Shown here one piece after another: positions 1 through 58,160 of a DNA stretch of 64,000 nt (positions are counted from its first letter, which is position 1; each line of letters starts with the position of its first letter). The DNA is from Chloranthus sessilifolius (lineage: Eukaryota; Streptophyta; Magnoliopsida; Chloranthales; Chloranthaceae). The notes under the pieces were generated by a model. That model searched no databases. It saw only the letters and a program-made list of their open reading frames with translations, and was not told the origin of the DNA. The DNA lies in the NCBI GenBank assembly GCA_021018995.1, contig CM037587.1, forward strand, positions 66,173,604 through 66,237,603, given 5' to 3'. Position numbers and translations under genes: made by a program.

Positions 1-480
1 ACACATTGGAGACTCATTTCACAGATCCTTAAATCATTGTGCAATTCTAACTTATAGTTATTCACCATGTAGTTGATTAGTGTGATTAATTATAGCTAGG
101 TTTTGATGTTTCACATGCTTGCTTATCACACTCACACTCGTACATCATATTCAAACTTGCTTGCTTATCACATTCACACACATTCATCAATTTCACACAT
201 GCTTGCTTATTGTACTTATTTCATTTACCCACATTTCTTATCACATTCACATTCATATCACACACACATGCACACACATGCTTAATCACATTCACATTAT
301 CTATATGATTCATATTAGAAGTCATGGTATTGAATTTCCCCTACCTCACACACAATTCAAGTCCAATCATGCAAAGACGGAGCACGGATGCTTATGCGTT
401 AATCCAAATCATGACCTACATATTAAGGTATTCAAAAGTCATTAACTAATGTCTAAAAGATCATAAACTTAAAAGATTCA
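1..480. repeat. AC-rich degenerate tandem repeat
   Basis: Positions about 110-300 repeat imperfect units built on CATGCTTGCTTATCACA with CACATTCACA tails. The rest, to 480, is AT-rich single-copy DNA. Short open frames here are translations of the repeat (His/Thr/Ser-rich) and are not credible genes. No protein domain or LTR end was seen. It is probably the decayed flank of whatever element T1 inserted into. Confidence 0.55.
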
Positions 481-486
481 GAGAGT

Positions 487-745
487 TCTTGAAGAAAAAT
501 TCGAATTTGCCTCAACTTGCTTAGTCGCGTGCACAAGCTCCAAGGTCACGCGAGCGAGTTATGTGGCACCTCATAGTCACACAAACTCGCTCTAGCAACT
601 TGGCTTGTCTATCTTTCTTGAGCTCATGGCCTGAGACAGTCGCGCAAGCGAGAGTGATGTCGCGTGAGCGAATTCTCCTGTTCCTTTCCAGTCGCGCAAG
701 CGATTGTTTAATATATTTTCATGCCTATTCTGAAGCCTCTCACAC
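487..745. repeat. CpG-rich short-motif array, LTR or spacer fragment
   Basis: Variants of AGTCGCGCAAGCGA and its reverse complement recur at about 523, 547, 580, 638, 658 and 690, for example TCGCGTG followed some 20 bases later by CACGCGA. The layout resembles the CpG-motif arrays in the U3 regions and post-integrase spacers of the Athila-like elements in this window, but the motif differs. The array is cut at 746 by the start of a Tat-like LTR. Which element it came from is unknown. Confidence 0.5.
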
Positions 746-956
746 TGTAGACACCCCCATTTTACCCTCTCGGAATATACAAACCTATTCAGTCAACCTT
801 TGACCTTTCTCATGATCTCTGGGAAAGGACTAACCTTTTTCGAAGACTTTAAAACCCTATATAGGAACCATGCACTAAAATAATAGTACATGGTCGGGAC
901 CTAGGCTGAAACAATAGCTCTATGACTCAGACTTGGCTCAAACCCAACAAAATCCC

Positions 957-1503
957 TAATTATGCGCCCTGTATAGCGCACATAACTCGATTGTATGCCC
1001 CATGGCTGGTGCGCAATTGGTCCCTCTTGGACCAGAATTTCACTACCTGAGGACCGCCTAGACCTGGATTATGTGCATTCTCAGGAGTGCAAAATCATAT
1101 TGAACACTTCACCACCAGTGCGCAATTAGTCCGTTTTGGACTGGCCTTTTACCCTTCTAGAAACCGCCTGAAGCACGACTGTACGCCCTATCTAGAGCGT
1201 GTAATCGAATTATGCTCCTCAGCACAAGCGCATAATTGGTTCCTAAGCCAACCCGGTTTCTAATTCCCTAGACCGCCTGAAAATTTCCTATTAAGTGCAT
1301 TAATTTATGCGCTTAATTGATTACTCGCACTACTTAGAGCGCGCAATTGGTCTAATTAGACTAGGCCTATGCTACCCGGCTGAGCTAGTCAGCCGATCAC
1401 TCACTGAGTCAGTCACTGACTCAAAGTGATTGTGCGTCTGATACTGGGCGCATAATTGAAATTCACTGAGCAATTATACGCACCCCACAGGGCACGCAAT
1501 TGG
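957..1503. repeat. Array of about ten short hairpins in the U3 of T1
   Basis: Successive inverted repeats pair a left arm like AATTATGCGC with a right arm like GCGCATAATTGG across loops of roughly 8-10 bases. Examples lie near 957-985, 989-1021, 1173-1206, 1208-1240, 1318-1350, 1429-1459 and 1470-1503. The loops differ while the arms keep the GCGC/AATT core. The last hairpin ends about 10 bp before the TATA box. Pairing was judged by eye, and some units have mismatched arms. Confidence 0.65.
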
Positions 1504-1512
1504 CCAAATACC

Positions 1513-3093: not shown

Positions 3094-4076
3094 TGTTGTC
3101 TTGCTTACCTTACAATTGTTAAAGGGTTAAAACATCAAAATAGGAGGACAAAGTATAGAGGTATGGGCTCAAGGTAAGCAAGCAGTCCTGCAAGAACCAG
3201 GGCTGTTGCAGCAAGCTTAAGAGATAAGTAAGGGTATGTCCATAGGGAAATGTGTTCTAAAATGTAGTAAATCTCCATATCTATAACAGATCTAACAATT
3301 TAACCTATCTTAGTTTTAAAACAAATCAAAACAGAAAAGAGGAGAGGTTTCTAAGAGATGCCACTTTACTAAAAAGTACAAAAATCAAATGTAAAATAAT
3401 CCAGAACTGATTAAACTCAGATTCAAGGGAATGGAAAAGATTAAAATCAAAATATGGGGAGCACTAGCTAGGGGTTTTGGTCTTTACTGAAAATCAATTG
3501 GATCAAAGGCAATGCATAGGACAGATGTGCTACAATCCTTCATCTGGCTATAAGCTCAAATGCAAGGTATAAGAATCTGACATTAACCAAAGAATTGGAG
3601 CAATCCTAAGTCTATGATATGTCCACTCAAATGGTCACAGATCATCCTAGAGATTGTTCTAATTCAAGGATCTGGATCAGAATAGGCAAGCTATTGCAGA
3701 TGCTGTGGGTGCCAAGCTATAAGCTCAAGCATCCACAGGGATATCTAATCCAAGGAAATCAAATACGAAAAGGTAAAATTTAGATCATAATCATCTCTAA
3801 AAACTATAATTACACTGTAATAATACAACTTACAATCCTATTGTGCACAGATCTGTAATCTGTGCACCATACAATCTATCTACAAGCCTTTGAAACTCTT
3901 GATTTACAGCTCTCAACCTTGCCCTAGCTACGGAAGAGGTTTAGCCAACCATAATTGGCTAAGGAGAGAATGGCGGAAGAAGGAAGAAAGAGGGAATTTT
4001 TTTGGCGGGAAATGGAATTCGGATCTGGCTCTGGCTCTCCCAATTTCTAGATGCTAGCTCTGTAAATTCTTTAAGC

Positions 4077-4084
4077 TTTTATAC
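4077..4084 (-). promoter_or_regulatory. TATA box of the A2 LTR
   Basis: CTTTTATA on the plus strand reads TATAAAAG on the minus strand. It lies about 280 bp downstream of the palindrome array in the direction of transcription and is followed by a purine-rich (GAGAAGAG) to mixed leader. It is a reasonable core promoter by position and sequence only. Confidence 0.55.
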
Positions 4085-4363
4085 TCTTCTCCTCTCTTCT
4101 CAGATCTGTTTCAGCCAATCAGAGCCCAAGGGAATAATTCTATTATTCTGAGCTGCTGATGTGGCCAATTTTTCTTCTAAAAGCTATTTCCTATTGGTCC
4201 AAAATTGGTAAACACATATGATGCAGTTAGAGGGTTCCCATTCATGTGCATTTGTGTTCCAAAAATACCCCTACGGGTCATTAACACACCTTGGAACTCG
4301 TGCACAAAATTCTAAAGTTGGCAACTGCTATGAAAGGAACTGAGAAGTTCCCAATTCGAGTGT

Positions 4364-5030
4364 TGAGAGGTTCAAGGAACCTCTCGACAGGTTCTGAGAC
4401 TGCTTGGTGTTCTCATCGACAGGTTGAAGTGGCTTTCGATAGGTTTGGAGACTTCTCAAGAAGTTCAGCTGACTAGTCGACAGGATTGGAGTACATTTCT
4501 ATCTTCCATCCAGTTCTCCATTATCCTCTCGAATGGTTATACAAAATCCTGTCTACTACTTGTGATGCTGAGTTGCACTAGTCGATAGGATTGGAGCCCA
4601 TTTTCACCTTCTGTTCAGTCTCATTACATCCTCTCAACAGGTTATAGAAAATCCTATCGACATCTTTGTAAAGCTCCCGTTGAGCTTTCGACAGGTTGGA
4701 AATAGCACTCGACAAGCTGCTTAAACCTCGCGAGGATGAGCGTAGCTTCAGGTAAGTTGTCAACAGGTTGCATTGCATTGCTCTTCCAACCTCTCGACAG
4801 GATCTTTACTTTTGTCTCCAGAACCTCTCGACAGCTTAGCTTCTTTACCTTCTAACTCCTCGACAGGTTGGAGCACACTCTCTAATCCTCTCGATAGGTT
4901 CATGGAACCTTTCAACAACTTAACTTTTATCTCCAGAACCTCTCGACAGGTACTGGGAACCTCTTGACAGCTTGGTATTTGAGTAACCTAACCTCTCAAT
5001 AGTTTGGAGTGTCCTCTCGAGATGTTCTGC
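4364..5030. repeat. TCGA-centred palindrome array in the A2 U3
   Basis: More than fifteen copies of a degenerate ACCTNTCGANAGGT palindrome or half of it, such as CCTCTCGACAGGTT, occur in both orientations. The array includes a longer inverted repeat at 4364-4385 (GAGAGGTTC / GAACCTCTC). Intervening sequence is not conserved. The same motif fills the A2 spacer at 23940-24390. A related CCTATCGA form is found at 34590-35230. Confidence 0.75.
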
Positions 5031-5398
5031 CTTGAGTTTCCACAACTGGCACACATCTTTGGTGTGCTGTCTTTCATCTGTCAGCACTTAGTAGCCTCTT
5101 GTTGGGTTCAATCATCATTCCTTTCAACTGCACTTAGTCCCAAGCATACCTAGTTGGGTCCATGACAATCTCATGAACTTCTAAAGCTCTGTGGATCACT
5201 TGATTGGCTGGCCTTTAGGCTGTAGGAACACATGTTGAGCAGCAGATTGCTTTTTTGTCCTTTTTAGATGGATGTCTGCACTAAGGCTATAATTTATTAC
5301 TTATCTACAAAACACACTTAAACACCTTATTAGTCAGCTCAAAGGTCCCTCAAAGGTCAGGTTAGGAGGTGAAAAATGGTATTTTTCACTACTTAATA

Positions 5399-5413
5399 CA
5401 CCCTCAAACCTAA
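5399..5413 (-). other. A2 3' polypurine tract
   Basis: The minus strand reads TTAGGTTTGAGGGTG immediately before the LTR start. It matches the tracts of A1 (10061) and of the copies at 34351 and 37721, with one G-to-A change. It would prime plus-strand DNA synthesis. Confidence 0.75.
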
Positions 5414-7341
5414 GCTTTGCTAGTCCTTGAACAAAAGTGAAATTAAAAACAATTATTGAAAATGAAAAGTGCCACTTCTGTAGTGAGCACAGATGCATTT
5501 AGCATATGCATCAAGCCTTTTAAAACACTAGGTGATCCCTAGTGGAGGAGTGAAGTCTCCTAAGGGTTTTCAGTGAAGGTACCCACAAACTTCTCCAGTG
5601 ACTCAGTTAATATCAATGCAGCATATTAAAACAAAATTCAAGCCAGAAAGAGTTCATTCCACACTTTGTCCATTCTATTTTAGAGGATTCTCAGCAGAAA
5701 CATGGCAGTTTAAAACTAAGATTCTGCTATAATTCTTTCATAATCAATCAACTCATGTCAAGACATTTTGTATGAAAAATTAATGCAGAGCTTACCATCA
5801 AGTTGAGAATTATGTTTTGATAATGCCCCCAACAAACCTAATTTCAGATCCAAAGCTCACCAGGGCTGTCACACAAAATAGAATAGAAGGGTGTATCCTT
5901 TCACATAGCTCAAGAGTAGTTACAGCCCTCAAATAGGACTGCAAGCATGAGCATAGGCATTGCTCTAATTTCTAAAATCTTCTAACTCTTTTCACCATAG
6001 ATTACACAAATCCTCATCTCCACATGACAGCTCAATCCATTTTAGATCGGTAGGGACTTTTATTGGGTTGTAATGTGGCTTATAGGTGAGGTTTATAAAG
6101 AACAAAAGGGAAAAGGATTTCAAATTGAGAAATCAGTAAATTAGGGAGGTGATTTGCAACTTCACAACCTTCATTTCAACACAAGCTTCATTTTCTTTGA
6201 ACTTTCAAATTTGAAGTGATCAATTTCTAATCTTCTTTTCAATGTATCCTATTGAGTGACTTCTCTTTCTTTTTTTTCACTCTTTTGTTTTGCTTTTCTT
6301 TTTTTTTTTTGAATATTTTTCTCCATTTATTTCTTTTTATGGGCTGGAATGCCACAACTACCACCAATTGTGCTTTCTTTTCTTTCAACCAAATGTCAAA
6401 CCTTGCTCCTCTAACCTCACTTCTCCTTCTATTTCCTGAATTCTCAGATTGAGGGTGAACTGAAATAGGTCAAGGGGTTTTGGGTTCAAGCTTTCTGATT
6501 TTATCAAAGAAAAACTGAGATTTTAAGGCTCAAATGGTGTGTATCAAGGGCAATTCAAAGGTGGGAAATTTTAGACTCAAACTGTCCAAGGGATGGCCTT
6601 ACTTCAGGCCCTCAATGTCATGAATGCTGACAAGCTATTTCAACTTGGATTTGTCTAACTTCTAGTGAGCAAGATAAATTCAATCAGTCCTTAGAGCAAA
6701 AAAAAATTTGCCAAAATTCTCTTCAAAGAAATTTTTTATTCAGGCCCAAATCTCACTGGGTATGGTCTTCCATCAAATTTCTGGGGTGTGTCCTCATAGT
6801 TTTCTCTCTTTTCAAGTTCACTCAGTATTAATTTTTGAAAATTCCTGGCATTTGTTTCATGACAATGTTAGAGCGACAACACTATTTAATTTTAAAAAGT
6901 TTTTAAATATCCTCTTTTTCAAAAATCAGGTGGGACTTCACTTTATTTTCACAAATTTCTTTTAACATGACTGCATTAACATTAACTATCCATTGGCATA
7001 CCTTGCCACACCCCCAAACCTATGAGGAACAGTGTCCTCACTGATTTAAGGAGAAAGTGCATGTGCAATAGGGTAAAATCAAACACAAAATAAAATAGAG
7101 TAAGAAGCAGTATCAAACAAGGTACTAACAAACAATTAAAACATACAAACAAACAAACATAAAGACATAAAGTAAAGCACACAAAATGTACTAAAGAGAA
7201 ATTTCATTTATAACACAAAAAATTTGTGCAATGCAAGGGAGAATCACTACACAATGAATTTATAAAAACATCCTAACTGATGACATGTACAAGTCTAATC
7301 ATCTCAAGTGTCTACTAGTTCATCCTTGACTTGGACTCCTT
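5414..7341 (-). other. A2 3' untranslated region
   Basis: Non-coding stretch between the extra ORF and the 3' LTR. It aligns by eye with 10075-11858 of A1 and 36213-37720 of the plus-strand copy. Shared blocks include the CACTAGGGATCAC segment near 5540 and the text near 6450-6600. It has T-rich runs at 6265-6320. No convincing coding frame; short open frames are unconserved. A second polypurine-like tract is at 7007-7022. Confidence 0.65.
7007..7022 (-). other. Internal polypurine-like tract of A2
   Basis: The minus strand reads TAGGTTTGGGGGTGTG, nearly identical to the 3' polypurine tract but about 1.6 kb upstream of the 3' LTR and just after the extra ORF. The same sequence sits at the same relative place in A1 (11708), the plus-strand copy (36197) and the fragment at 59593. 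Conservation suggests a functional second plus-strand primer, though this is inference. Confidence 0.55.
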
Positions 7342-7605
7342 TTACTTTTTCTTTCTGCAAAAGTGAACTAGCTGGAGGGCAGAGGCAAGTGGGGTAGTAT
7401 CAACTACTTGTGCAGGCTCTCTGACAGCCATTTCAGCAACTCTCTTTTCAAGTATTTTTGCCTTCTTTTCAGCAAGTTGAAATCGACTTTCATACAGTTC
7501 CCTTGTGGCCTTGGTGGCCTCTTTGGAGGCAACTAGCCTTTTCTTGAGTACATCAGCCCTCATTTTCTCTGTTGCTACTATATTCTTCTGAGCTTTAAAT
7601 ATAAT
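7342..7605 (-). pseudogene. A2 extra (env-position) ORF, C-terminal part
   Basis: This is the last part of the ORF that continues from 21151, interrupted by A1. The frame is open across the insertion point when A1 and one ATAAT copy are removed. The segment is Lys/Glu/Ala-rich with regular heptads (about 50 residues, ATKATRELYESRF to AEKKAKILEKRV), so a coiled coil is likely. It ends in a stop at 7342 after a Lys-rich tail. Function unknown. Confidence 0.6.
7601..7605. repeat. Target-site duplication of A1, left copy
   Basis: ATAAT directly before the A1 LTR end at 7606. The same five bases follow the other LTR at 21146-21150. Five-bp duplications are normal for Ty3/gypsy integration. Confidence 0.85.
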
Positions 7606-8029
7606 TGTTGGCGGATTCTGAGTGTGTGCTTACTTTATTGGTTGGTGGTGAAAGTCATTTAAAAACCAAAGAAAGAGTAAAACAGGGGATGGAATCAGCA
7701 CAACTAAGAAATCCTAGACCTGCAAGATACAGGGTTCATTGTAGCAAGTTTTGATAAGTAAGAGTTTATCCCATAGGGAAAGGTGATCTACAGCTCCAAA
7801 GGAGCCATCTCTAGTGGTCCCTCCAGATCTGACTACAGATCTGGCAGTCCTAAAAGGAGGGGAGTTTAAGGTCACTCATTCTAAGTATTCTAATGTCTAG
7901 ACTACAGAAAGGGTTGAGAGGATGGATGGAGTGTGGAAAATAAATATAAAAGGGTGAGAAGTATGTTCTGGAGTCAAGATCAGAGAAGTTTTGTAACTCA
8001 GATTCAGATCTGATGTTATAGAAATCCTG

Positions 8030-8900
8030 TCCAGGGGCTACATTATCACCACTGAGGATAAAGGATCCAACCCATCACTCTGCCATGATTCCACCCTTAA
8101 GGCTATAACCTGTCCACTGAAATGGTCACACATTATCCCATAGGGGAGCCATTATCCAGGGATGGGTCAAAACACAAGTAAATCATTGCAGGCTATATTT
8201 CATCCAGGCTACCAGCTCAAGAATCCATAGGGAACCTCAATCTCTAAAGCTCTAGATGTGGGGCTAAGGCTGTATAGCACCATGATAGCCCAAACACATA
8301 GAACCAGCAAGAGATTGAGTGCAACCTTCGATCTAGCTGTCCATTGCTTGAGTGAGGCTGCAATAGTCCAGTCACCAGCCTACAATCTCTATAACCAGAT
8401 CAGATTCAACATCTGATGGCGGATCTATACAAATATAGGGGAGTCTGCCTCTGTACAATCTCTTATCAGGCTTCTACAAGCTCAGGTGTAAAGAAGAAGG
8501 ATCCATCTTGGATCGGTGGATTAGAATCACGCTAAGGCTATAATCTATCCACTTAAATGGTCACAGACTATCCCAGAGGTTATCCTCCTCACGGAGCCCA
8601 AAACAAAACAAGAATATCGCTGCTACCACCATGGTCACAAGGCTACCAACTCAAGCTCCCATGGGGATTTCAGATCTAGTGGGTCCTGTGATGGGGCTAA
8701 GGCTGTAGGACCATGATAGCCCAGACACATAGGTCACTTGGATCTAAATGGCCCTTAGAATCAGTCCTCCATTACTTTGAAACACAGCCAAAGCAATGGC
8801 GGATCACAAGGCAGTAGCCTTGCACAGAGCATCTCACACACAATCATAAATCCTACAAAGTACAGATCCTATTACATAACTTCCATTAATCTAGTTCAAA
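8030..8900 (-). repeat. 432-bp tandem duplication in A1 U5
   Basis: Blocks GGCTATAA..TCCACT.AAATGGTCACA (8101 and about 8533) and GGGGCTAAGGCTGTA..ACCATGATAGCCCA (8262 and about 8694) recur with the same offset of about 432 bp. Each copy holds a short CCACTGAAATGG-type inverted element. The same duplication is in the other LTR (about 19130-19990), so it predates insertion. A single related block is in the A2 LTR near 3607. Confidence 0.6.
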
Positions 8901-9045
8901 ATACATACAGAGACATAGCCAGCAAGTACTGGACTGTGGAGAGAAGGAAAAGAGAAAAAGAAAATTACTTACAGCTAAAAAGAAAGAGAAAAGAAAAATG
9001 ATCTGAGATGTGTTCCCAGATACCTAAACCTAAGCTAGGTATGGG

Positions 9046-9053
9046 TTTATATA
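9046..9053 (-). promoter_or_regulatory. TATA box of the A1 3' LTR
   Basis: Plus-strand TTTATATA, read TATATAAA on the minus strand, lies some 80 bp past the end of the CGCGAG array. The counterpart in the 5' LTR is at 20134-20141. Confidence 0.65.
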
Positions 9054-9129
9054 GCAGTGGAGTGGCGGAGCGTTAGAGATAGGAAACCCTAATTTTAATG
9101 ATGCCACATGGCCTAACAGTGATCCTTGG

Positions 9130-9870
9130 ATGTCTCGGGGTGCGTGCACAGAGATTTGAGCATGGGAGTGCGTGCCCTAATCGCTGGAAATTCCCAAAAG
9201 GTCCTCTGCTGAAGAGATGGAAGTTTAGGTTCAGAGCTTCACTAGGTAGTTGTAGTTTCCCAGACTTGTCACGTGGTAGCTCTTTGCTCTTCGCTAGGAT
9301 GATTTGACATTGAAGCTTCAGCCGTCGTGAGGTTGCCTTGGTTTGCTCTTCAGGCAGTCGCGCGGTAGAGAATTGTGCTCTCACTGGATTGGGGTTCGCG
9401 AGGTTGAGTAGAAAACACAGTCTTAGATGTCGCGGGGTTGAAGTTCAAGCAGTCGTGAGGTTGCTCGATCTTCGCTGGGCTGATCTTTGTGAGGATGGCT
9501 TTACCTTCGCAAGTATGTTTTCTTCTTGAATGGCATGAGAACTGTGCGAGGAGTTCTTCTTCTGATAATTACATCCTATGGTGACTGCACGATAGCTGCG
9601 CGAGGAATCTTTTGAAGCTATCTCTCCTCAGCCGTTCTGAGCGAACTATGCGAGATTGAGAGAGGTCTGCTTTGAACTGCGCGACACTGCATGATGTGTT
9701 CTACTCTTGAGCTTCGCGAGAGCTACGCGAATTTGAGTTTCTGAAGCTCTTCAGTCACTCATCTGTGCGAGAGGTTGCTGTAAAGTCTTAGGAAGCTCAG
9801 TTGAACTGCGCGAGGCATATTTCTCCTGAATCCTCTAAAGCTTGGGTCAGCTGCGTGAGGCTCATTTTAG
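9130..9870. repeat. CGCGAG motif array in A1 U3
   Basis: More than twenty variants of TCGCGAGG, GCGCGAGG and TCGCTAGG are scattered through otherwise unrelated sequence. Some pair as inverted repeats, such as TTCGCG / CGCGAA at 9714-9732. Many copies show TG or CA in place of CG, as expected for methylated CpG decay. The same motif is in the 5' LTR (20220-20950) and in the spacer after integrase (12290-12495). Confidence 0.7.
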
Positions 9871-10060
9871 GTCTGGATTCAGAGTTCATTCTTTTGAGGG
9901 ATTTCTGGTGCCAAAGCAGGCTCCTTAACAGGATTCCTGGCCTTATTTCATTGTTGATTATTATCTACACAAAACACTTAACAAGAACTTATTAGGAGGT
10001 TAATGGTCTAATCAAAGGTTAAGTTAAGGGGTGAAAAGTGATACTTTTCAGGTCTTAACA

Positions 10061-10074
10061 CACCCCCAAACCTA
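10061..10074 (-). other. A1 3' polypurine tract
   Basis: The minus strand reads TTAGGTTTGGGGGTG directly before the LTR start TGTTAAGACC. It is the plus-strand primer of the element. Confidence 0.8.
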
Positions 10075-11898
10075 ATCTTTGCTAGTCCCTTAGCAAAGCT
10101 ACATTAAATCTACTCTAAAAATTAAATGCCACTTTCGTAGGGAGCACGAATACATTTAGCATATGTACCAAGCCTTTTAAACCCCTAAGTGATCCCTAGT
10201 GGAGGAGTGAAATCTCCTAAGGGTTTTCAGTGAAGACACCCACAAACTTCTTCAATGAAACAGTTAACAAAAGTGCAATATCATCCAATGAGCAATCAAG
10301 GGGCAGACTTAGTTTACTCCTGCATCATTAAGCATAAAAGAAATTTAATTCATTGGTTGCACAGTAACTTTAAACAGTATAAACTCTTCATGATTGCACA
10401 GCATTTCCAAATAGTTTACAATCACAGAAAACTGCACAAGTGTGTGCCAGCATTGAGCTTATCCTTAGGTCAAAAATTAGGTTAAGGTCATACATAATGC
10501 ATTCAAGTTCAGACTCAAAAACTTTGCAGGGCATACTCTCATAAGGGTTTTGTTGAGGGGTTCATTCTCTCACAGGCTCAAGAGCAGTTACATCCCCCAA
10601 ATGGGTCTATAAGGATGAGCATAGGCAGAGTTCTAAAGTGCTGACATCATTGGCAGTTCCTCACCATAGATTGGATAACTCTTTTATCTTCACATGACAA
10701 CTCACTCAACTTTTGGATCACAAGGGCTTTTAACTGGGCTGTACTGTGGCTTATGGAGTGGGGTTGAAAGAATGGAGGGTTGAGAAGGGGTTCAAAATTG
10801 AGAAATCAGTAGGTGACAGAGGTGATTCATGACTTCACCTTCTTGAGTTTAGCTCCTTTCATCTTCTTTGAGATTTTCATATTTGAAGTGATCAGTTTCT
10901 CTTCTTGATTTTGATTTTCCAATGAAAGTTCCTCTTGACTCCTCCCTTGTTCCTCTTCATTATTATTTTTATTTATTTTTACTGGAGTTTCCTTCTTTTT
11001 ACTTTGTTCTTGCTTTTCAGAAATGCCACCATGTTCTCAGTTACCATACTGCCAGATTTTTGAGATCCTTCTTCTCCATTCACCTAATTTTGACCATAGC
11101 TAGTCCATCTTCAACTCTTTCTCCTTTACCTTCTGAATTCTCAGAGTGAGGGTAGGTTGAATCAGGTTCATAGGTTCAGGTTCAAGTACTCAGGATTTAG
11201 AATTTAAAGCTCAAAGGGGGGTATGGACAAGGGTAGTTGCTTTAGGATTGGTCTTTTTAGGCTCAAACTGTCCAAGAGAAGGCCTTAATCCTTTCCTAGG
11301 TCTCATGAGTACTGTCAGTTGTTTCAACTTGGAGTTACCTAACTTCTAGTGAGCACAGTGACTCAGTCAGTCTTTAGAACTAGAAGGGATTGCCTTGGTT
11401 ACTCCTCAAAAGATGGAAAAATTTTTATAGGCCCAATTCTCACTGGATATGGTCTTCCTTTGAACTTTTAAGTATGTCCTCACCTTTTTCTCTCTCTAAT
11501 GATTCACTAAGTGCTGATACAAGTAGGTTTCCTTGGTGATATTATCATGGAAATATGGAATATTAGAAGTTTATATTGTTTAAAGTTTGCAAAAATGTTA
11601 ACTTTCTTATTTGCATGATTCTTAAGTGAACATAGATCCATTTCCATATTGCTCAGATGAGTCTGTTGCACTTATGTTAACTATTCCATTGGCAGGGTCT
11701 GCCTGGCACACCCCCAAACCTATGAGGAGCAGTGTCCTCACTGGTTCAAAGGTGGCTGTGCAGCAGAGTTATTACAGCATAAAAGACCAGAACAAGAAAC
11801 AAAGTAACCAAGAATAGAAAATTGTACAGCATATTAGAAAAAGAAAATTTCATTAAGATTAAAAGAAAATTATAAAAATGGAGGAAAGGAGAGGGGGA
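10075..11898 (-). other. A1 3' untranslated region
   Basis: Non-coding. It aligns with A2 5414-7341, sharing the CACTAGGGATCAC block near 10190 and the TCAGAGTGAGGGTAGG region near 11140. It includes an internal polypurine-like tract at 11708-11723 (minus strand TAGGTTTGGGGGTGTG), placed as in A2. Open frames of 60-75 codons in it are unconserved. Confidence 0.6.
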
Positions 11899-12126
11899 TT
11901 AGGGGTGAGGGGATGGAGTGGAGGGGGCAGGGGATGGATTTGTCTTTTGCTTCTTCTGCGACAGCTGAAGCTTTTCCTCCTCCTCCTTGGCAAGGATTTG
12001 CAGAACCTCCTCGTATTCATCCCAGAGGGGTTGGAGGGGATCCAACTCTTTAGGTGGCGGCGAGTCCAACCACATCGGGTAAAACTTGTTAGGCAGCGCA
12101 GTTGGCTTGTCATCTGCTATGATTAG
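11899..12126 (-). pseudogene. Small Athila-lineage ORF after integrase
   Basis: The conserved frame runs through LPNKFYPMW, then Pro-rich residues, DPLQPLWDEYEEV and LAKEEEK, to a stop at 11899. The same frame with LPIKFFPVW, DPLQFLWDEYDEV and LAKEKKK is present at 35715-35984, so selection once kept it. No ATG was found in this frame; an ATG exists in another frame at 12113. The tail is Lys/Gln- then Pro-rich. A TTTAAATA box lies about 80 bp upstream, with the motif array before that. Function unknown. Confidence 0.5.
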
Positions 12127-12193
12127 GATTAGGGAAGGACCGCTAAGGTGGGAGGAGAGAAGATGTGATGAAGATGAATAGGACCTCCCTACG

Positions 12194-12201
12194 TATTTAA
12201 A
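12194..12201 (-). promoter_or_regulatory. Internal TATA-like box of A1
   Basis: TTTAAATA on the minus strand between the CGCGAG spacer array and the small ORF. The homologous place in the plus-strand copy (35616-35623) has TTAAATAG, and the flanking TTCAACC.TTTCAT text is conserved. This suggests an internal promoter for the downstream ORF. Confidence 0.45.
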
Positions 12202-12289
12202 GGTGAGGATGATGGAAGATGAAACGGTTGAATAACATCCAAGTCACCGCAATTAATTGAGAGTGAGTTGGGAAACGGCAAGTCCCAGC

Positions 12290-12495
12290 AATCAGCGTGA
12301 GAAATGACAAATGCATTAGACTCGCGCAGCTAGGTAAGGGGATCACGAGATATCAGAATCGCACGACTATGGGAGTTAGAGCTGGAAGTGCGCGAGAGAT
12401 TCTGCAGCATTGAAGCTCGCGACAGCGAAAGAAATGGTCTATGCGAATTGCGCGAGTCTTCCCAAATCACAATTTGGAATGCGCGAGGGCCTAGT
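12290..12495. repeat. CGCGAG motif array in the A1 post-integrase spacer
   Basis: GCGCGAG, TCGCGAC, TCGCGCAG and CACGAG variants recur about ten times in 200 bp. It is the same family of motif as in this element's LTR U3. It sits about 90 bp upstream of the internal TATA-like box, as the LTR array sits upstream of the LTR TATA. Confidence 0.65.
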
Positions 12496-12719
12496 GCCAA
12501 ACAGGAGCACTATAGTTAGTGCAGCCTATTCATAAAAAATATTCACATAATATGCATTCAAATTCGAAAATCAGCAATTCACAGAAGAAGAAGAATAAAT
12601 CATACCAATCCCACACCAACTCTATCTTAACAATATCAAACTCCACATGACCCCTAAAATTTCCTAAAACTTAAGGTAGAAACAAAAGTAGTATAGTACA
12701 ACATGGACACAACTGTGGG

Positions 12720-13658: not shown

Positions 13659-13688
13659 TGAATTTCTTTTGGACAGCCCTCCTAATTT

Positions 13689-15041: not shown

Positions 15042-15047
15042 AGGGAT

Positions 15048-45690: not shown

Positions 45691-45766
45691 GTATATATAC
45701 ATTTTTTCTTTCTTCCCTTTTTTGTTGGCAACCTTCTCATATGCCGATGCGTCTCATATTTTCAGG

Positions 45767-48186
45767 ATGTCTGGTGACGAAGGGCATGATCGGCAAAAAG
45801 GGCAGGAGATGGCCTATGGCCCCCGTGGGGAACAGTTCTTTGTGTCTCAGCGCTCCTCCCAGCCTTGGTATGAGATGCAAGGCGAGGCCACCCACACCGG
45901 CCTCCTCTACTGCCAGCACACCCACATGTCCAACTTTGGGATCGTTGGTCAGGTAAACAGATGGGCCCCCTCCTCCTTTCTGCTTTTGTTTTCCTTTGAT
46001 GCCCTCATTATACCTCCCTGCCCCTATCTGATTGATGCCTTCTGCTTGCAGCCCCGGCCACACATTATGTTCCGAGGCGGTTGGTTTGACCTCCAGCGTC
46101 TTGTGCTTTGCCTTCCCCCAGTGGTGAAGGACCTACTCACTGCTGCCGGTTTTGGGGACTTCATTTCGTGCCCCACTGTAAGGGCTAATACGGCCTATTT
46201 AAAGGCACTGATAGAGCATTTTTGCCTCGAGACGATGGCATTCCACATGGCCGTGGCAGAGATGGCCTTCACACCGGCAGACTGGTCTATGATCACTGGG
46301 GTCCGTATCGGAGGGGTGCCCATGGTACCTACCCGCACACCGGGTAGGGAGGAGGTGATTCAACTGCTAGGGGCCTACCCGTCCTCAGGGAATGTTCGGG
46401 GCTCGGAGGTCAAGCTATCCTAGTTGGTTGATCAGTTTGGGCCTAATGAGTTGGTGGACCAGGGGCAACCTGACATGGACATTTACATCGAGCTCATCGA
46501 ACTGCGCCGCGCCTTATCTCGCATCTCATCGTTTTCCTCTGGGCAAGACTCTCCTCTCCAACACCGGTGGAGGCGAGTCTCTTGTCCCTCGGCCACTGAT
46601 GGTGAACTGGGAGACCGTGCATTGATTCGATTGGGGCGGTGCTGGCTATGCCGTACTCATGTCCAGCCTAAAGCGGGCTGTTCTTGGGGAGTCTAGCTCC
46701 ATTATGGGTTTCTGGCCTGCCATTGAGGTATTTTATCTTTTGGTTTTAGTTTATTCAATTTTCTTTTATAGCATACCTGTCCTCATCTGCCTGCTTTCTC
46801 AGGTCTGGGGGTACCTTCACTTTCAATCGGGTCGCCCTCTGCTTCAGTCCGACATTGCTACGTTCCCCCTCATGAGTAACTAGCACGTGGGCCGCCGTCG
46901 GGACATAGGTATGAAGCATTTGGAGTTAGGACTGCGCTCTCGATTCGCTCAATTTGATCCCAGGCAGTGTAAAACAATTCCTTTTATAAATTTGATTTCG
47001 GCTCACATGTGCTAGGGGTTCTGATCCAATGTGTGCATCCCCTTCCAATTTTCTCTTCTTTTACAGGTCATCCTCGACCCTTACATAGGATCTCCCTTCT
47101 GGAATTTGGCCTCAGTGGGTCCCTCTCGTCTTTTGCTGGACCGTCGTATCATCTTTCTCTACGGGTCCTGGACTAGGGCCTACTACTTAGGGGAGAGAGC
47201 GGTTCATCAGTATCGCCCTCTCTTTGTCGTGCCCCAAGCTCCTCCTGCTGATGTGTTGGCCCCAGAGGGCTCCATTGATGAGCTCACTGCTCACTTTCTT
47301 CATCATGGGGTTCCTATCGATGACCTTCTCCTGCCCGGGGGGTATCGTGGTCGTGATCACTCTCGCCTATCATTTCTTCTTCGATGCTAACTTTCTAGCT
47401 TTTGGCGGGCCGCGATCTTAGGTAATGCCCCTTCTCTCCTTTCATTCAGCATCTTTCATGTGGTTACTTTGATTGACCTGTCTCCCTTAATGATAAAATG
47501 TTTCTGTCTACAGTTTGAGCAGAGCGGCGACTCAGATGAGGGGGAAGAGGAGGCCGTTCCCTATGATGCAACAGGTGCTGGACCTTCCGATCCTTTCGGG
47601 GCTGGTGCTTCTGGCGTGGCTTCAGGTGCTGGACCCTCTGGCCCTTCTGGTGCCGGTGCTTCTGGTAGCTCGCCCGTCAAGGTCCAGGGGACCTTCAAGC
47701 GCCTGGATGATGCCTTTTTGTGACGCGTGTGTGCCGACGTGGCTGAAAAGGCACGAATTTCTGCTGAAGCTATCCAGGTCCCACCTCCCGAGCTAATTCC
47801 TGGGGTAATTTCTATCTTATTGCTCTGTTCTTATTCCTTTCTCTCGAATTATGCCGATGGCCTGTGTAACTAACACCTCCTTTTCCTTTTCGGCTAGGAT
47901 TATGAGTCGGCAGTGAGTCAGGCCGAATACTACCGTAATCTCATTGAGCTTAGGGAGACCGAAGTGGTGAGTGAATGCTGGCCCAACCTAGTCATTTTCC
48001 TAGTTTACTTTCTGCCTATTTCTCTATTTGATGGCTTTTGGTGTGCCTCTGCAGCGTGCTCGTGAGAAGGAGTCGCGCTCCTTGCTTAGCCGTATCTCTC
48101 AGGCGTGGACTCGGGTGGGGGAGACCCGTACCTTTCAAAGTGTGAGCCGGCGCCAAAAGAAGTCGAAGGGGGCTACCCAGGACTAG
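45767..48186 (+). pseudogene. Antisense gene A: spliced plant-mobile-domain protein
   Basis: Antisense to the surrounding pol. Exons by splice signals: start MSGDEGHDRQ at 45767 after TTTTCAG; exon to 45952; 99-bp intron 45953-46051; exon 46052-46727; intron to 46802; exon from 46803; exon 47067-47421; exon from 47514; 47898-47966; last exon 48055-48186 ending SKGATQD. The protein shows LLTAAGFGDFISCP, AFTPADWSMITGVRIGG, then FDWGGAGYAVLMSSLKR and a VWGYLHF..GRPLL relic, as in the plant mobile domain family, then a Gly/Ala/Ser linker and a Glu/Arg-rich tail. Stops at 46423, 46890, 47388 and 47721, and shifts near 46530, make it a pseudogene. Exact exons need alignment. Confidence 0.6.
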
Positions 48187-48596: not shown

Positions 48597-48713
48597 GGTG
48601 TATATATTATATACGCCAGGCCAACATTCACCAATCAATAGCCGGGCGTATATATTATATACGCCGGGCAAAAATGATTCAAAATTTGCCTTGGCATATA
48701 TAATATATACGCT
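48597..48713. repeat. 21-bp palindrome triplet upstream of antisense gene B
   Basis: Three copies at 48597, 48645 and 48693, each 48 bp apart; the middle one is a perfect palindrome apart from its central base. It lies 150 bp before the ATG of gene B and 410 bp after the stop of gene A. 48187-48596 is intergenic, with a G run at 48561-48572. Confidence 0.9.
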
Positions 48714-48864: not shown

Positions 48865-50349
48865 GATGGACCTGCCTTCAAAAGGGGGCCTAAGCTTTTA
48901 TACGGGGGCCGGTATACTTCCCTGTTTGGACCCGGGGCCCAGTTTTTTGCAAAAATGGCATGATAGTTTGGCTTAGAGCGAGCTTGCTATTCTGAATGGC
49001 CTCGGGTTGTCCCACCTTTCCTCTCTTCTCGTTGTTCCCCTGTTGCCCAACCTACTACAGGCGGCTTTGGCATCATGGGACCATAGGGCCCATGCCTTTA
49101 AATTTGGGTCTAGGGAGCTAACCCCAACTTTGGAAGAGCTAGCCTCCATCACTGGCTTGAAGATGCATCGAGGCCTTGCTAAAGTAGTGCCCAAACCGAG
49201 GTATGCAAAGGCGGTCCATGCGGTCCTTGGCTTAAAAAAGGGTGGAATCTGAAATGTTTCACGGAGGCCCACAGTGTTGGTGAAATTCCTAAGAGAACTT
49301 TTCGATGACTCGAGCCTTCGAAAGTTGCCTATTCGAGATCCCTTCAATGTGAAGGCCTTTGCCCTTTATTTGTTGTCGGAAGTTCTCTTCTTCACTGGGG
49401 GTGAGAGCTTTTCCCTTGGACTATGTGATGTTTTGATCGAATTAGAGGGAGGTCGCTCATTGGTACACCTGGTCCTGGCGGAGATGTATCGAGGATTGGA
49501 TGTTGCGGCCTCAGGCAGGGTTGGGATTCTCAGCGGGAGCTCGCTCCTTGTTCAAATCTGGTTAGGAGAGCATTTGGCTATCATGGGGCCTGTGCCGAGA
49601 TTCTGCTTGATTAGAGGGGATGTGGCTCGGGGTTTTCTGATCCGGAGTTCGAGACTACCTGGTGGGAGCATCGAGGCCCGGGCTGTGGCTATCGATCTGA
49701 CTGGATGGATGACACCTTTCCGATTGTCCGCTCTCGAGATTATGAGGGCATCACACTTTTGGGGTTGACTGGCAGCACATACTACTTCCCATCTCGAGTG
49801 CTCCATCAGTTCGAGTATACTTAGCATGTGCCGTGTGCCACGAGGCCACCCTTGTGCTCTCTGATATTCCCTCGAGGTTCTCTTAGTGATCTTGATCGCA
49901 TAGCAGCCCTCTGGGAAACCCGCCAATCGGCGCATATGTGTAGCTTGGTCCAGGGGGGCGCCGTCTCTCCGGGTTATGAGGGTTGGCTGATATCCGAGGG
50001 ATTACCTACTCCTAGCCCAGCTTCGGTAGATGTGGTAGAGAGAGGGCCCTAGCCATGTAAGGAAGCAATGCTTCGGACCCGGATCGAATCCCTTTCTGCA
50101 GAGAGGCTGGCTTTGATCGAGGCTTTGGAGAAAGAAAGGGTCAAAGCTGATTTTGAGGAGGTGAGAGCTGCTACAGCCGAGAGCGAGGTTCTTCGATTGA
50201 CTGGTCTTTTGACTGAGTCTCGCAGCGCAGCTGAAGCTTCCCGGAGACAGCAGAAGAGTCTTCATGGTAGGTGGATGTCTAATCGAAATGCCCGCGAGGA
50301 CTCCCTGCTTGCAGAGATTAGTGCTTTGAAGCGTGCTCCCCGCCCTTGA
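48865..50349 (+). pseudogene. Antisense gene B: DUF7745-like protein with coiled-coil tail
   Basis: Start MDLPSKGGLSF at 48865. After a TAG at 48974-48976 the frame continues with SWDHRAHAFKFGSRELTPTLEELASITGL, then (49274-49768) FNVKAFALYLLSEVLFF, VLAEMYRGLD and LVQIWLGEHL, then a TYYFPSRVLHQFEY relic near 49780-49820. This order is that of the retroelement-linked plant family annotated as DUF7745, distantly like the plant mobile domain. The tail (50068-50349) is a Glu/Arg/Leu heptad coiled coil ending KRAPRP. Stops at 48976, 49252, 49768 and 50052. No introns needed. Family assignment is from memory of motifs. Confidence 0.55.
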
Positions 50350-50619: not shown

Positions 50620-51035
50620 TCTGCAATGTAAGACTTTTTATGGGGATTTTCTCTTTCACCTAGTGGGGTTTTTTTGGAAAAGAGAAATCTATTTTCTTCC
50701 ATTTTTGTTTTTGGAATTTTCTCCTCCACAGTGTGAGGCTTTTTATGGGAAAGGGAAATCTATTATCTTTTTTGAAATTTTCTCCTCCACAGTGTGAGGC
50801 TTTTTATGGGAAAGGGAAATCTATTATCTTTTTAGGATTTTCTCCTCCACAGTGTGAGGCTTTTTATGGAAAAGGGAAATCTATTTTCTTTTTTGGAATT
50901 TTCTCCTCCACAGTGTGAGGCTTTTTATGGGAAAGGGAAATCTATTATCTTTTTTTGAATTTCCTCCTCCACAGTGTGAGGCTCTTTTATGGAAAAGGGA
51001 AATCTATTTTCTTTTTTGGAATTTTCTTTTCTTTT
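50620..51035. repeat. 60-bp minisatellite after gene B
   Basis: Five to six copies of a unit with CTCCTCCACAGTGTGAGG, CTTTTTATGG and GAAAGGGAAATCTATTATC. The CACAGTGTGAGG cores are near 50727, 50788, 50848, 50909 and 50969. Each unit carries TTTTCTCCTCCACAG, a good splice-acceptor look-alike. It lies about 300 bp past the gene B stop. Confidence 0.75.
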
Positions 51036-55625: not shown

Positions 55626-55810
55626 TATTTTTGGAATTGGTATTTTTTCTATTTTTATGATCTTTTGTATTTTTTCGGAGGTCAGCCCCTGGTGAGGTGG
55701 ATCTCTATATATACAAGGTAGAGTGGTCTAGAGGCTAACCTCACTTTTTATAGGTTGTTTTTTTTTTTAGAGTCGGTGCCGTTTTCACGGCATTCGGCAA
55801 CTCTCAAGAG

Positions 55811-57175
55811 TTAGGGCAAGGATGCCCAGTTACTCACCTGCGAGGCTTGGCCTTTACCTCTTTGATCAGGAGCGGCATCGGTAGGCTCTTGTATTTCTTC
55901 CCTCAACATATTTACAGAGGGATCCTCCGGGACCTTGTCCTCTACAGTTAGGAGGGGCCCAGAGTGGTTGGTGCTGGAGTGAGGGGTGGATCGGGGAACT
56001 TCTTCCTCAAACAAGGAAAGGGCGGCTAAGTCCATTTCGAAGTCTGGGGGGATGATGTAGGGATTGGTGGGGTGGATTGAAGTAGGCTTATGTGGGGTTA
56101 CCCTCGTCTCCCCATTCAGATCAATTTTTACTACCCCGGCGCTCACATAGGTTTCACAGATGTGGGGGCGAGCGTGAGGTTCCTCTTCCAAGATGATTCC
56201 TCTGGCCTTGGCGGCTGCTGCGGCTCTCATCTTTTCCTTGGCTTCTCTGACTTCCTCTTCTCTGGGCATGTAGCCTAAGCTAAATTTAGTTTGTTGCCCC
56301 TTGGCCTTGACGGGGTCTCTTCTTCCTTGAAGGCATGGGCCCAGTCCTTTCCCTTTTTGATGGCCCCATCTATGGAGCATGAACACAGCTGCGTCCATTC
56401 CTCCTCCATTTTTATCCGGGGTCTTTTCAGTTGGTTCGAGGGTAACATTTGAGAAGTCATACTCAAATCGATGGAGATCGACGTCCTCAGCTATGTGCGG
56501 TATGTTCAGCACTTTCGGATTTTCAATGTGCAGAGCGCTCTTCCCCATGTCCTCTCTGCTCTCGCCTATGATGGTGACAATTTTTCCTTCTGAGATGAAT
56601 CGGAGCTTTTGGTGCAGGGTAGATGGTATTGCTCCGAGCTTAGGTATCCACGGCCGGCCCAATAGCAGATTGAAGGTAGACTTGATGTCCATTACTTGAA
56701 AGGGGGTGGTGAAGGTTTGCGGTCCGAGGATCAGGTCAAGGTCTACTTCTCCTATGATTTCCCTTCTAGTGTTTTCGAATCCCCGTGCGCTTGATATGGA
56801 TGGCCGAAAGGTGTCGGGGTTCACCCCAATTTTGATTGCCGTCCTTAGAGGGCATACGTTCAGCACCGACCCGCTGTCGATCAGGACCAACGGCACCACC
56901 AAGTTCCCTACTTCCACTGTTATATTCAGGGGTTTAGAATGGTCATTCCGCTCGATCGGTAGGTCTGCATCGGTGAAAGAGATGGTGTTTGGGGCCAACA
57001 CTTGCCCTATTATTTCCCCTACTTCATCCGGAGTTACATGGGTGGAGACATGCGCATCCTTGAGCGCTCCCATTAGGGCTTGAAAGTAGAGTGGAGACGT
57101 GATTAACAAATCCCACACAGTAATATGCGTGAGTGTTCTCTTGAGCTGTGTCTCCAGTATATGCTCCCTGGCCAT
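55811..57175 (-). pseudogene. Tat-like protease with G-patch
   Basis: A 454-codon open piece. Protease VLIDSGSVLNVCP with catalytic Asp at residue 100, and LLLGRPWIP at 170-178. About 90 residues further on, RWGHQKGKGLGPCLQGRRDPVKAKGQQTKFSLGY (265-302) fits a G-patch, an RNA-binding or helicase-activating motif. The same order of protease then G-patch is known from betaretroviruses and is described for Tat/Ogre polyproteins. The C-terminal 150 residues are acidic and Pro-rich. It ends at 55811, and 55626-55810 is a non-coding gap to the RT piece. Confidence 0.8.
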
Positions 57176-57540
57176 TTTTTCAAAGGGATTTCCTGTGGCC
57201 TGTTCTTTCTTCTTTTCCTCTCCGACCGCCTCGACGATGCTTCGGTTGGGCGTAACTGCCTCGATCGGGTAACGAATTCAACAGCCTCTTTTTGGTTGCA
57301 CCCGGCATTCATGTCCATCTGTTCATAGCTCAATGGTACCTGAAGCGGGTCATAAGCAGGTTTTGGGATGAGAAATGGAGTGCGTGAGGATTTCATGGAG
57401 GATTGGGTTGGATATATTGGTTTCTCGGGTCCGACCAGGTTAACTCCAATGGGGGGTGGAATGGTAGTGGGGGGACTTGACGGAATTGGACTTATGGGCA
57501 CGGAGGGGGCTTGTACTGGTGTTGCCTGGGCATGGTAGGA
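57103..57540 (-). pseudogene. Tat-like gag C-terminus to protease linker
   Basis: Pro/Ile/Ser-rich, with IPPPIGVNLVGPEKPIYP, YDPLQVPLSYEQMDM and FVTRSRQLRPTEASSRRSERKRRK, typical of the disordered region between gag and protease. It overlaps the protease frame by a shift. Homology with Tat stops near 57540, where unrelated DNA starts. Whether this pol belongs to T2 or to the copy at 62962-64000 is undecided. Confidence 0.6.
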
Positions 57541-57559
57541 CCAATGTAGATGGAAAATG

Positions 57560-58160
57560 ACCAGAGTTCCTTAGCGAGAAAGAGCTTTTGAAGCTCTAGT
57601 GTGTGAGAAATCCTAGCACTCCAGATTATCTCCGTGATAAAACTGCGATGCGAAGCAACTGTGTGATTCACTAAAAGTTCTACTGCACGAATGAGCCCTT
57701 CCCATCAGCCAAAGCCAACTCCACAAAGGTAAAGCAACTGCACGAATGAGCTAAAAGCAACTCCCAGCCCTGCGAAGCACAAGCTCTCAACTTCTCAGTT
57801 TTATTCAAGGACCTTTTGGGAATTTTCCAAGGCTAGGGCACACTTCCCGAGGCATGGATTTTGAGGCACACGTCTCGAGGCATTCAAGGATTGTAATAGT
57901 GCCACGTTTGTTAAAAAAATTAAGGTTAACATCTTAAGAGCCAAGGCCATTTTTAGAGAGTATATAAGTTGTACTTAGAGTTTATTATTTTCATCTTTCC
58001 TTCATCCTCTGCCGGTTGAGAGCTCTCTAAGGTTTCTGGCTTGTTGTTTCCTTATTTCATTCATTTTAAGTTTAAAGATTAAAAGCTTTTGGGGGATATC
58101 TTGTGTTTGTAACTTTGGGCATTTTTTTTTCGTTCATTAATGTCTTTTATTCCTCTCTAT
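57560..58160 (+). promoter_or_regulatory. Motif array and TATA box of an unassigned LTR or spacer
   Basis: 57640-57785 repeats CTGCACGAATGAGC, GCGATGCGAAGCAACT and CCTGCGAAGCAC. TATATAAG is at 57961-57968, followed by a TC-rich leader (CATCTTTCCTTCATCCTC). CTCTATTTCGTTTCCCAG at 58155-58172 looks like a splice acceptor. The array-then-TATA layout is as in the other elements, but the motif is different. Family unknown. Confidence 0.45.

Follow-up and report, generated by a model that had tools for sequence, protein, structure and literature searches.

The closest described counterpart of the sequences reported here is the repeated motif (RM) of Sireviruses, which are Ty1/copia elements. Bousios et al. 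(2010) describe it as palindromic and mostly CpG-containing, with many copies in the long terminal repeat (LTR) upstream of the TATA box and more before ENV (77 of 79 linker copies), a CGG-CCG core in 12 of 13 RMs and element-specific variants such as CGGTCGACCG, which has a TCGA centre and comes from a Vitis element; the RM is termed Sirevirus-specific, being absent from the classic Ty1/copia elements compared (PMC2829016; statements on published systems, here and below, refer to the parts of the cited texts that were available). That such motifs can serve anti-silencing is seen with VANC in VANDAL elements (PMC5735166), DNA transposons for which a binding protein and demethylation have been demonstrated, and in which VANC21 sites have a single orientation and the motif has spread through tandem repeats (PMC5735166, PMC10398659). 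Foamy virus Tas works with two promoters, one in the LTR and one internal (PMC8670036), and the plant elements Retand and Grande carry antisense open reading frames (ORFs) and family-specific tandem repeats between pol and the 3' LTR (PMC11963269, PMC7264820). What env-like and antisense accessory genes do in giant plant retrotransposons has yet to be settled (PMC7264820). Here we describe a 64-kb stretch of Chloranthus sessilifolius DNA (contig CM037587.1, positions 66,173,604 to 66,237,603, from an assembly of 2.17 Gb), called the window below. It is composed of nested Ty3/gypsy elements, A1 within A2 and then A3 and T1/T2, and holds 14 arrays of short motifs, most of them before LTR promoters or internal genes. 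In one motif class neighbouring sites lie whole helical turns apart, and we think it rather probable, judging from these patterns, that each array acts as a multi-site operator at LTR and internal-gene promoters, bound by a protein that recognises its sequence.

The elements were provisionally assigned to the Ty3/gypsy superfamily from Pfam matches (Retrotrans_gag, RVT_1 with RT_RNaseH, and the integrase rve among them). We take A1, A2 and A3 to be Athila-like, given reverse transcriptase (RT)/RNase H in A1 and ORFs placed between pol and the 3' LTR, and T1 and T2 to be Tat/Ogre-like, given antisense plant mobile domain (PMD) ORFs with rve and RT_RNaseH matches. The pol of A1 has RT/RNase H matches and a protease match slightly below the Pfam cut-off; A1 has a TGTTAAG start, and its two LTRs are 94% identical. 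A3 lies on the plus strand. The elements and their arrays are as follows.

7605-21145, minus strand: A1, Athila-like Ty3/gypsy element; 3' LTR about 7605-10060, 5' LTR about 18700-21145.
3094-5400, minus strand: 3' LTR of A2, the rest of which lies at 5400-7604 and 21146 to about 27378.
9235-9870, minus strand: CGCG-class array in the U3 region of the A1 3' LTR, about 180 bp before the TATA-like box at 9046.
20323-20950, minus strand: CGCG-class array in U3 of the A1 5' LTR, before the TATA-like box at 20134.
12290-12490, minus strand: CGCG-class array in the A1 spacer between pol and the 3' LTR, about 90 bp before a TTTAAATA box near 12194.
4357-5030, minus strand: TCGA-class palindrome array in A2 U3, 23 sites (at most 5 of 14 mismatches), before the TATA-like box at 4076-4083.
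23940-24390, minus strand: A2 spacer array of TCGA-class palindromes with 16 sites; the accessory ORF ATG follows after about 320 bp.
34582-35235, plus strand: TCGA-class array of A3 (CCTATCGA), between the LTR start at 34366 and an internal promoter at about 35612.
27771-27985, plus strand: T1 U3 array of GGCGTATATAATATATACGCC, before the TATA-like box at 28247.
29804-29965, plus strand: T1 array of four palindromes at 47-bp spacing, lying after the LTR and ahead of gag.
42107-42319, minus strand: T2 LTR U3 array, before the TATA-like box at 41819.
44674-44742, plus strand: T2 internal array of two palindromes, with the first antisense PMD-like gene about 1 kb downstream.
48597-48713, plus strand: T2 internal array of three palindromes at 48-bp spacing; the second antisense gene follows after about 150 bp.
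957-1503, plus strand: AATTATGCGC inverted-repeat array, before the TATA-like box at 1513.
500-720, strand unassigned: additional array (TCGCGCAAGCGA and variants) with 6-mers in common with A1.
57620-57800, plus strand: weak GCGAAGC/CACGAATGAG array with an A1-like motif, before the TATA-like box at 57961.

An earlier, sequence-only reading of this DNA had listed seven such arrays with one layout. Our count adds those at 0.5, 29.8, 44.7 and 48.6 kb, the last three of which are perhaps what it meant by 'the 21-bp palindrome in T2'. The boxes it named are present at 1513 (+), 4076-4083 (-, given there as 4084), 9046 (-), 20134 (-) and 57961 (+), and the T LTRs have others at 28247 (+) and 41819 (-), the loose TATA pattern having 70 matches in the window, many within TA repeats. 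The box at 12194 is CACCTTTAAATA, and its counterpart CACCTTAAATA precedes the small A3 ORF. That the arrays are real is borne out for 13 of the 14, in which the fitted motif likelihood exceeded all five shuffles, with a narrow margin for the A1 spacer (41.8, best shuffle 35.0), and not for the 57.7-kb array (33.0, shuffle range 22.7-33.2); the comparison is biased towards the real arrays, which were fitted with 40 restarts and the shuffles with 15. An unbiased scan for over-represented 7-mers (400-bp windows, p < 1e-5) recovered nine of the 14 through their own words (A2 LTR, A2 spacer, A1 5' LTR, A1 spacer, A3 and four T arrays), listed the 44.7-kb T array through a different word, missed the A1 3' LTR, 0.5-kb, AATTATGCGC and 57.7-kb arrays, and additionally listed other repeats, e.g. 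at 1.4-2.1, 31, 45, 51 and 59 kb. Chance or low complexity as the origin of the arrays is ruled out by the shuffles together with the matrix comparisons given next.

The arrays fall into about four motif classes with cores TCGA, CGCG, GGCG..CGCC and GCGC: a CGCG class (A1 LTRs and A1 spacer, with the 0.5- and 57.7-kb arrays placed there tentatively), a TCGA class (A2 LTR, A2 spacer and A3), the 21-bp palindrome of the five T1/T2 arrays, and AATTATGCGC. Exact words separate them well. All 11 window copies of GCGCGAG lie in A1 arrays, four of them in the A1 spacer, as do 21 of 22 copies of ATACGCC in T arrays and 23 of 25 copies of CTATCGA in A2/A3 arrays, while a search for the 21-bp palindrome of T that tolerated 7 mismatches gave 17 sites, all within the five T arrays. 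Among the 16 words tried there were less specific ones: CCTCTCG has 8 of its 21 copies outside arrays, and of the 8 copies of TCGCGAG 2 lie outside arrays and 2 in A2. A matrix of shared 6-mers is likewise block-like, with scores of 8.5-14.1 among T arrays, 4.6 for A2 LTR and spacer, 3.1 and 2.6 for A1 LTRs and spacer, and 2.5 and 3.1 for A2 with A3; A1 with A2/A3 gives 0.9-1.4, at or just above the 99th percentile of the null (1.2-1.5). The scores with A1 are 2.8-3.5 for the 0.5-kb array and 1.4-2.3 for the 57.7-kb array, in a matrix where CpG-rich arrays score somewhat high regardless (A1 spacer with AATTATGCGC, 2.1). Scanned over the 64 kb, a position weight matrix (PWM) built from the A2 LTR gives 12 matches per 300 bp in the A2 spacer, 11 in A3 and a weak 5-6 in the A1 LTRs (shuffle maximum 4). 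The T PWMs rank most other T arrays first, the 44.7-kb array standing at background only (3-5; shuffle maximum 5), and the A1 LTR PWMs show no preference for the A1 spacer (6 matches per 300 bp against 6-7 in A2/A3 arrays).

When PWM columns are compared directly (45 pairs, 300 permutations each), A1 matches the A2 LTR in register, and also the 57.7-kb motif, and A2 matches A3 (p 0.003 and 0.007); A1 and A3 do not match at p 0.02, and at that threshold the 0.5-kb array matches nothing, A1 included. We read the sites as TCG-CG-AGGTT in A1, TCG-AC/AG-AGGTT in A2 and TCG-AT-AGG in A3. The in-register match of the A1 and A2 LTR motifs suggests a single site drifting within the Athila-like group; the T and AATTATGCGC motifs look independent. 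The convergence proposed by the sequence-only reading would account for only part of this, and that reading's 'at least five different motifs' reduce to about four classes, five or more independent motifs being ruled out by the 6-mer matrix and the column comparison. Family specificity largely holds by words and 6-mers, although 'each family has its own' is too strong, as A2 and A3 share a class. It had also called the motifs inverted, which describes A2, whose sites are palindromic, T, whose palindromes are close to perfect, and AATTATGCGC, which is built of inverted pairs; A3 is half-symmetric, and A1 is hardly palindromic, with cores mostly in one direction and sites that match AACCTCGCGAGGTT poorly (3 to 5 mismatches, with 108 such sites outside arrays).

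Motif sharing between the LTR and the internal gene start of one element, which that reading had also described, is confirmed by exact words and the 6-mer matrix. For A2 the two arrays belong to the same element because A1 is nested in it, flanked by the 5-bp target duplication ATTAT. No alignment of at least 80 bp connects the LTR and spacer arrays of A1, nor those of A2; the T array units do align with one another and are alike over 47 bp.

In the TCGA class the sites are also helically phased. With the consensus AACCTnTCGAnAGGTT, picked after inspection of the sequence and allowed up to 5 of 14 mismatches, there are 23 sites in the A2 LTR, 16 in the A2 spacer and 19 in A3, i.e. 58 in 1.84 kb, against 145 in the other 62.2 kb. 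Their gaps cluster at 20-24, 29-34, 51-54 and 72 bp (typically 21, 31-32 and 52 bp), the best period being about 10.5 bp. The mean of cos(2 pi gap/10.5) is 0.79 in the A2 LTR, 0.79 in the A2 spacer and 0.65 in A3, with p at most 5e-5 under two nulls; A3 at 4 mismatches gives p 0.0012-0.0015, and when only exact TCGA is counted p does not exceed 0.0023 in any of the three arrays. Merging gaps with similar spacers reduces 55 gaps to 41 and leaves a mean cosine of 0.71, a value reached by none of 200,000 jittered sets, and of the gaps up to 60 bp, 46 of 54, or 34 of 40 once merged, deviate from whole turns by no more than 1.5 bp, where 29% are expected. A control with decoy palindromes, of which 158 of 300 were usable (mean 0.21), was discarded: a decoy may coincide with the real motif or overlap it, so that the maximum equalled the true value. 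Outside this class phasing is patchy: p is about 0.002 in the A1 5' LTR and 0.08-0.10 in the 3' LTR, and among T arrays 0.0014-0.017 in the T2 LTR (T_LTRb) and the T1 array before gag (T_5utr), 0.07 in the first internal array (T_i1) and 0.2 in the T1 LTR (T_LTRa). The phasing of the TCGA class points to DNA-protein recognition.

The A2 and T arrays therefore resemble the Sirevirus RM in being palindromic U3 arrays before a TATA box, A3 being half-symmetric and A1 hardly palindromic, and extra motif copies again stand before a gene between pol and the 3' LTR. They differ in that none of the window arrays has a CGG-CCG core, in that their hosts are by assignment Ty3/gypsy and not Ty1/copia elements, with antisense PMD genes too, and in the whole-turn spacing of one class, of which the available text on the RM gives no sign (PMC2829016). 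With VANDAL the window elements share a dense, short, family-specific motif in non-coding parts that varies between related families (PMC5735166, PMC10398659), the mostly one-directional A1 array coming closest to the VANDAL arrangement; unlike VANDAL they are retrotransposons, and the binding protein is here putative. As in foamy viruses, an LTR and an internal promoter go together, with a transactivator that is again putative. In both, accessory genes lie near the 3' end, and we know of no palindromic arrays of Tas sites. A motif common to LTR and accessory promoter, found here, is not seen in the available texts on Retand and Grande (PMC11963269, PMC7264820). Among the papers listed by literature searches there was no report of LTR/spacer motif sharing or helical phasing for Athila or Tat/Ogre, nor of the Sirevirus-type layout in Ty3/gypsy elements. 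Within that scope, whole-turn spacing in the TCGA class and LTR/internal sharing in Ty3/gypsy elements appear new. The layout itself was already known from Sireviruses, and its presence here suggests it has been reached in both LTR superfamilies.

That the motifs are mostly CpG-containing is true of the Athila-like arrays. The CpG observed/expected ratio is 0.57-1.13 in the A1, A2 and A3 arrays and 0.00-0.18 in their surroundings, except for 0.47 downstream of the A3 array; there is little contrast for the T1 LTR (0.90 and 0.73) or the AATTATGCGC LTR (0.82 and 0.66), and none at 57.7 kb (0.64 and 0.65). Most array CpGs lie inside sites (16 of 20 in the A2 LTR, 16 of 20 in the A2 spacer, 18 of 28 in A3). 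In sunflower one Athila clade is less methylated near its ends (PMC12844716), which, speculatively, such arrays might help to account for.

The arrays recur in other copies in the genome, all of which were retrieved with queries containing or touching an array, so that copies lacking one would be missed. For A1 the best 40 of 5691 candidates were scored and 20 of the 39 non-window places examined; all 20 carry the U3 array (2-5 GCGCGAG, no CTATCGA, 5.0-6.5 CpG per 100 bp), and the spacer array (1-3 GCGCGAG) is present in the five that show a spacer, the other 15 stretches having none. Nine copies match the intervening body, with no GCGCGAG and 0.2-0.4 CpG per 100 bp. The U3 varies in length (740-887 bp matched). 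Near window position 9493 its array has about 113 additional bases in L010, L012, L015, L017, L018, L019, L020 and L026, and an unaligned stretch of about 170 bases in L011, L013, L014 and L027, an array polymorphism.

The A2 spacer array was found in all 29 non-window loci among the best 40 of 3322 candidates scored (81-93% identity apart from fragments), with 14-18 sites and a mean cosine of 0.60-0.81. Between two A2 subgroups, fixed differences number 1 in 256 motif columns, 3 in 193 spacer columns and 13 in 230 flank columns; as they are fewer in the array than in the flank, the array as a whole looks constrained. In more distant pairs non-CpG divergence is 0.086 in motifs, 0.084 in spacers and 0.145 in the flank. 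On the LTR side, four of seven stretches bear the U3 array (L060, L066, L067 and L069); L062 keeps the first few sites at its LTR start, followed by other sequence, the L064 stretch ended short of the LTR and L068 had no match. Relative to the window, L060, L066 and L067 show duplications or losses, while L069 can be aligned over its full length, with 33 gap columns. Exact TCGA in five hand-cut LTR arrays (the window and the four copies) gives mean cosines of 0.53-0.87 (p at most 0.0011), and in four further A2 spacers p of 0.0008-0.017 in three and 0.05 in the fourth, values which, the copies being related, are not independent tests. In L066 (1-1500) an A1-like LTR sequence with three GCGCGAG directly adjoins the TCGA-class array, a junction we read as insertion into, or recombination at, the array.

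The internal arrays stand near the following accessory genes.

11899-12243, minus strand: small A1 accessory ORF frame, without a clear ATG.
35670-35984, plus strand: small A3 accessory ORF frame, no in-frame ATG nearby.
22857-23654, minus strand: A2 accessory ORF to its first stop, 265 aa, in the env-like position between pol and the 3' LTR.
45617-46423, plus strand: T2 antisense ORF with a PMD match (PF10536, 7.2e-08, 32.4 bits, cut-off 34.9).
49253-49768, plus strand: second T2 antisense ORF with a PMD match (1.7e-06, 27.9 bits, cut-off 34.9).

The small A1 and A3 frames are homologous (52% identity over 65 aa), and a promoter-like sequence common to both elements precedes them. Both T2 PMD matches are significant yet under the Pfam gathering score. 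The A2 ORF has a lysine/arginine-rich N terminus, which we presume to be nuclear-signal-like, and no Pfam family at its cut-off; its seven PDB matches (six sigma factors at 1.4e-4 to 2.6e-3 and one autophagy protein at 0.19) were rejected as low-complexity, and a single-sequence AlphaFold2 model was uninformative (pLDDT 40). Comparison of the accessory ORFs and regions of A2 and A3 found no similarity. Protein searches for relatives gave none at E 0.001, in a collection that seems poor in plant proteins because the PMD query also found none, and searches of viral contigs gave 0 matches.

In the operator reading, which we favour, clusters of short, often palindromic putative sites upstream of the LTR promoter and again at internal gene starts would be bound by a protein, probably dimeric in the palindromic classes. 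Because the arrays sit at both places, one factor could switch on, or hold open, LTR and internal transcription units alike, and so influence transcription or silencing; whole-turn spacing would set adjacent TCGA-class sites on the same face of the DNA, enabling cooperative loading, while arrays would expand and contract via duplication and the site would drift between families. Possibly, though we put it no higher than a tentative proposal, the factor is the product of the accessory gene near the internal array, which would bind its own family's motif and lift silencing or activate the LTR in an autoregulatory loop, as with VANC or foamy virus Tas. Such a protein would explain why an array precedes the accessory gene as well as the LTR promoter. 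Both T2 PMD-like genes have an upstream array (about 1 kb and 150 bp away), the small A1 and A3 ORFs have diverged as did their motifs, Retand antisense proteins are predicted DNA binders (PMC11963269), and Grande gene23 is nuclear and has its own promoter (PMC7264820). The A2 and A3 elements nevertheless share a motif class with no accessory ORF similarity found, which weakens the simplest self-encoded version for the TCGA class; the A2 ORF has neither a Pfam family nor a usable model, and the T1 array at 29.8 kb precedes gag. A comparably tentative candidate is a host transcription factor, for one or a few of which the elements would have gathered sites, different families using different ones. 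This accounts for arrays at several promoters and for A2/A3 sharing despite different ORFs, and Sirevirus motifs mostly resembled stress-factor sites in PLACE (PMC2829016), but 16 to 23 copies of a 16-bp site seem above what plant LTR boxes are known to have, and the site differs between related elements. A more specific version of the element-encoded factor is conceivable, though we lean towards doubting it: the accessory protein (PMD in Tat/Ogre, env-position in Athila) would dock cooperatively on helically phased sites both at its own promoter and in the LTR and so release its own family alone from silencing, and, as site and reader changed together, families would stop recognising each other. 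Were this true, plant 'env-like' and PMD genes would be transcriptional self-recognition factors and not envelope relics.

Structure in RNA, or cruciforms, might instead be what the palindromes provide, their hairpins acting in RNA or feeding small-RNA silencing. Among eight pieces folded, T (z -9.7) and A2 (z -5.1 and -4.0) do fold better than shuffles and AATTATGCGC weakly so (z -2.4 and -1.1), U3 is included in the 3' end of genomic RNA, and the 29.8-kb T1 array lies downstream of the LTR. The failure of A1 (z -0.7 and -0.6) and A3 (z -1.8) to fold clearly better than shuffles, in spite of the same layout, rules out a common RNA hairpin role for all arrays, and it is not apparent what a 10.5-bp phase would mean in RNA. 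Phasing and motif sharing thus favour DNA-protein recognition, and we regard RNA structure as a quite improbable general explanation, with RNA roles possible for the T and A2 arrays. Neutral tandem duplication, i.e. functionless growth of short units by slippage and recombination, is in our estimate improbable. It would accommodate the duplicated spacers of the TCGA class (55 gaps in 41 clusters), the variable A1 U3 and the similar T units, as well as motif columns that are not slower than flank in close A2 copies, but leaves unexplained that motif and phase persist although most spacers differ, that LTR and spacer motifs of A1 and A2 are the same without longer homology, and that A1 U3 arrays are so much richer in CpG than the adjacent body.

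Several results count against the operator reading. Phasing is absent in the second internal T2 array (T_i2), the A1 spacer and the AATTATGCGC, 0.5-kb and 57.7-kb arrays; with most non-TCGA arrays unphased, it is ruled out as a property of all arrays. The spacing of T palindromes, mostly 45-48 or 100 bp, may simply reflect tandem duplication, given the likeness of the units. The two halves of the A3 sites are unequal (4.2 of 5 on the left, 2.4 on the right), and no TATA box is evident before the A2 accessory ORF. The CpG excess is partly circular because the motifs themselves contain CpG, and it is not maintained in place: in the A1 LTR pair (union of CpG sites, 49 in 758 array columns and 15 in 1682 others), CpG has become TG/CA in one LTR at 24 of 49 array sites and 6 of 15 elsewhere, about as fast, which indicates that resident copies are unprotected, and non-CpG differences accumulate faster in the array (37 of 660 against 70 of 1652). 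This copy decays everywhere; the transposing A1 lineage would have preserved its array CpGs. In A2 the motif is not demonstrably slower than the spacer between subgroups, and among close copies (pairs of 21 rows) non-CpG divergence is 0.080 in motifs, 0.098 in spacers and 0.067 in the flank, so that no constraint is visible after insertion.

A motif common to LTR and accessory promoter, together with its helical phasing, offers a direct probe of what accessory genes do, since an array oligonucleotide could fish out the reader, and phased sites combined with LTR/spacer sharing could serve as a sequence-only screen for plant self-recognition systems.

Other features of the window are minor. In A3 (34366-37992) the array is flanked by an LTR start (34366) on one side and the internal promoter on the other, and a further LTR start (37736) is followed nearly directly by an LTR end (37779-37992); LTR and spacer may have recombined, or a template switch between them taken place, at the common array. 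The 0.5-kb array is CpG-rich, contains TCGCGCAAGCGA twice exactly and lies just before an LTR-like start, TGTAGACACCC, near 749. At 57.7 kb an inverted repeat was searched for and none was found. One further T2 gene belongs here.

55811-57277: G-patch domain (PF01585, 3.1e-05, above cut-off) in a T2 ORF.

PMD, G-patch and AIR1 are the commonest atypical domains in plant Gypsy elements (PMC9289625). Plain non-coding tandem repeats, with words unlike those of the arrays, occupy 45220-45690, 50640-51030 (period 61 at 50.6 kb) and 59000-59400.

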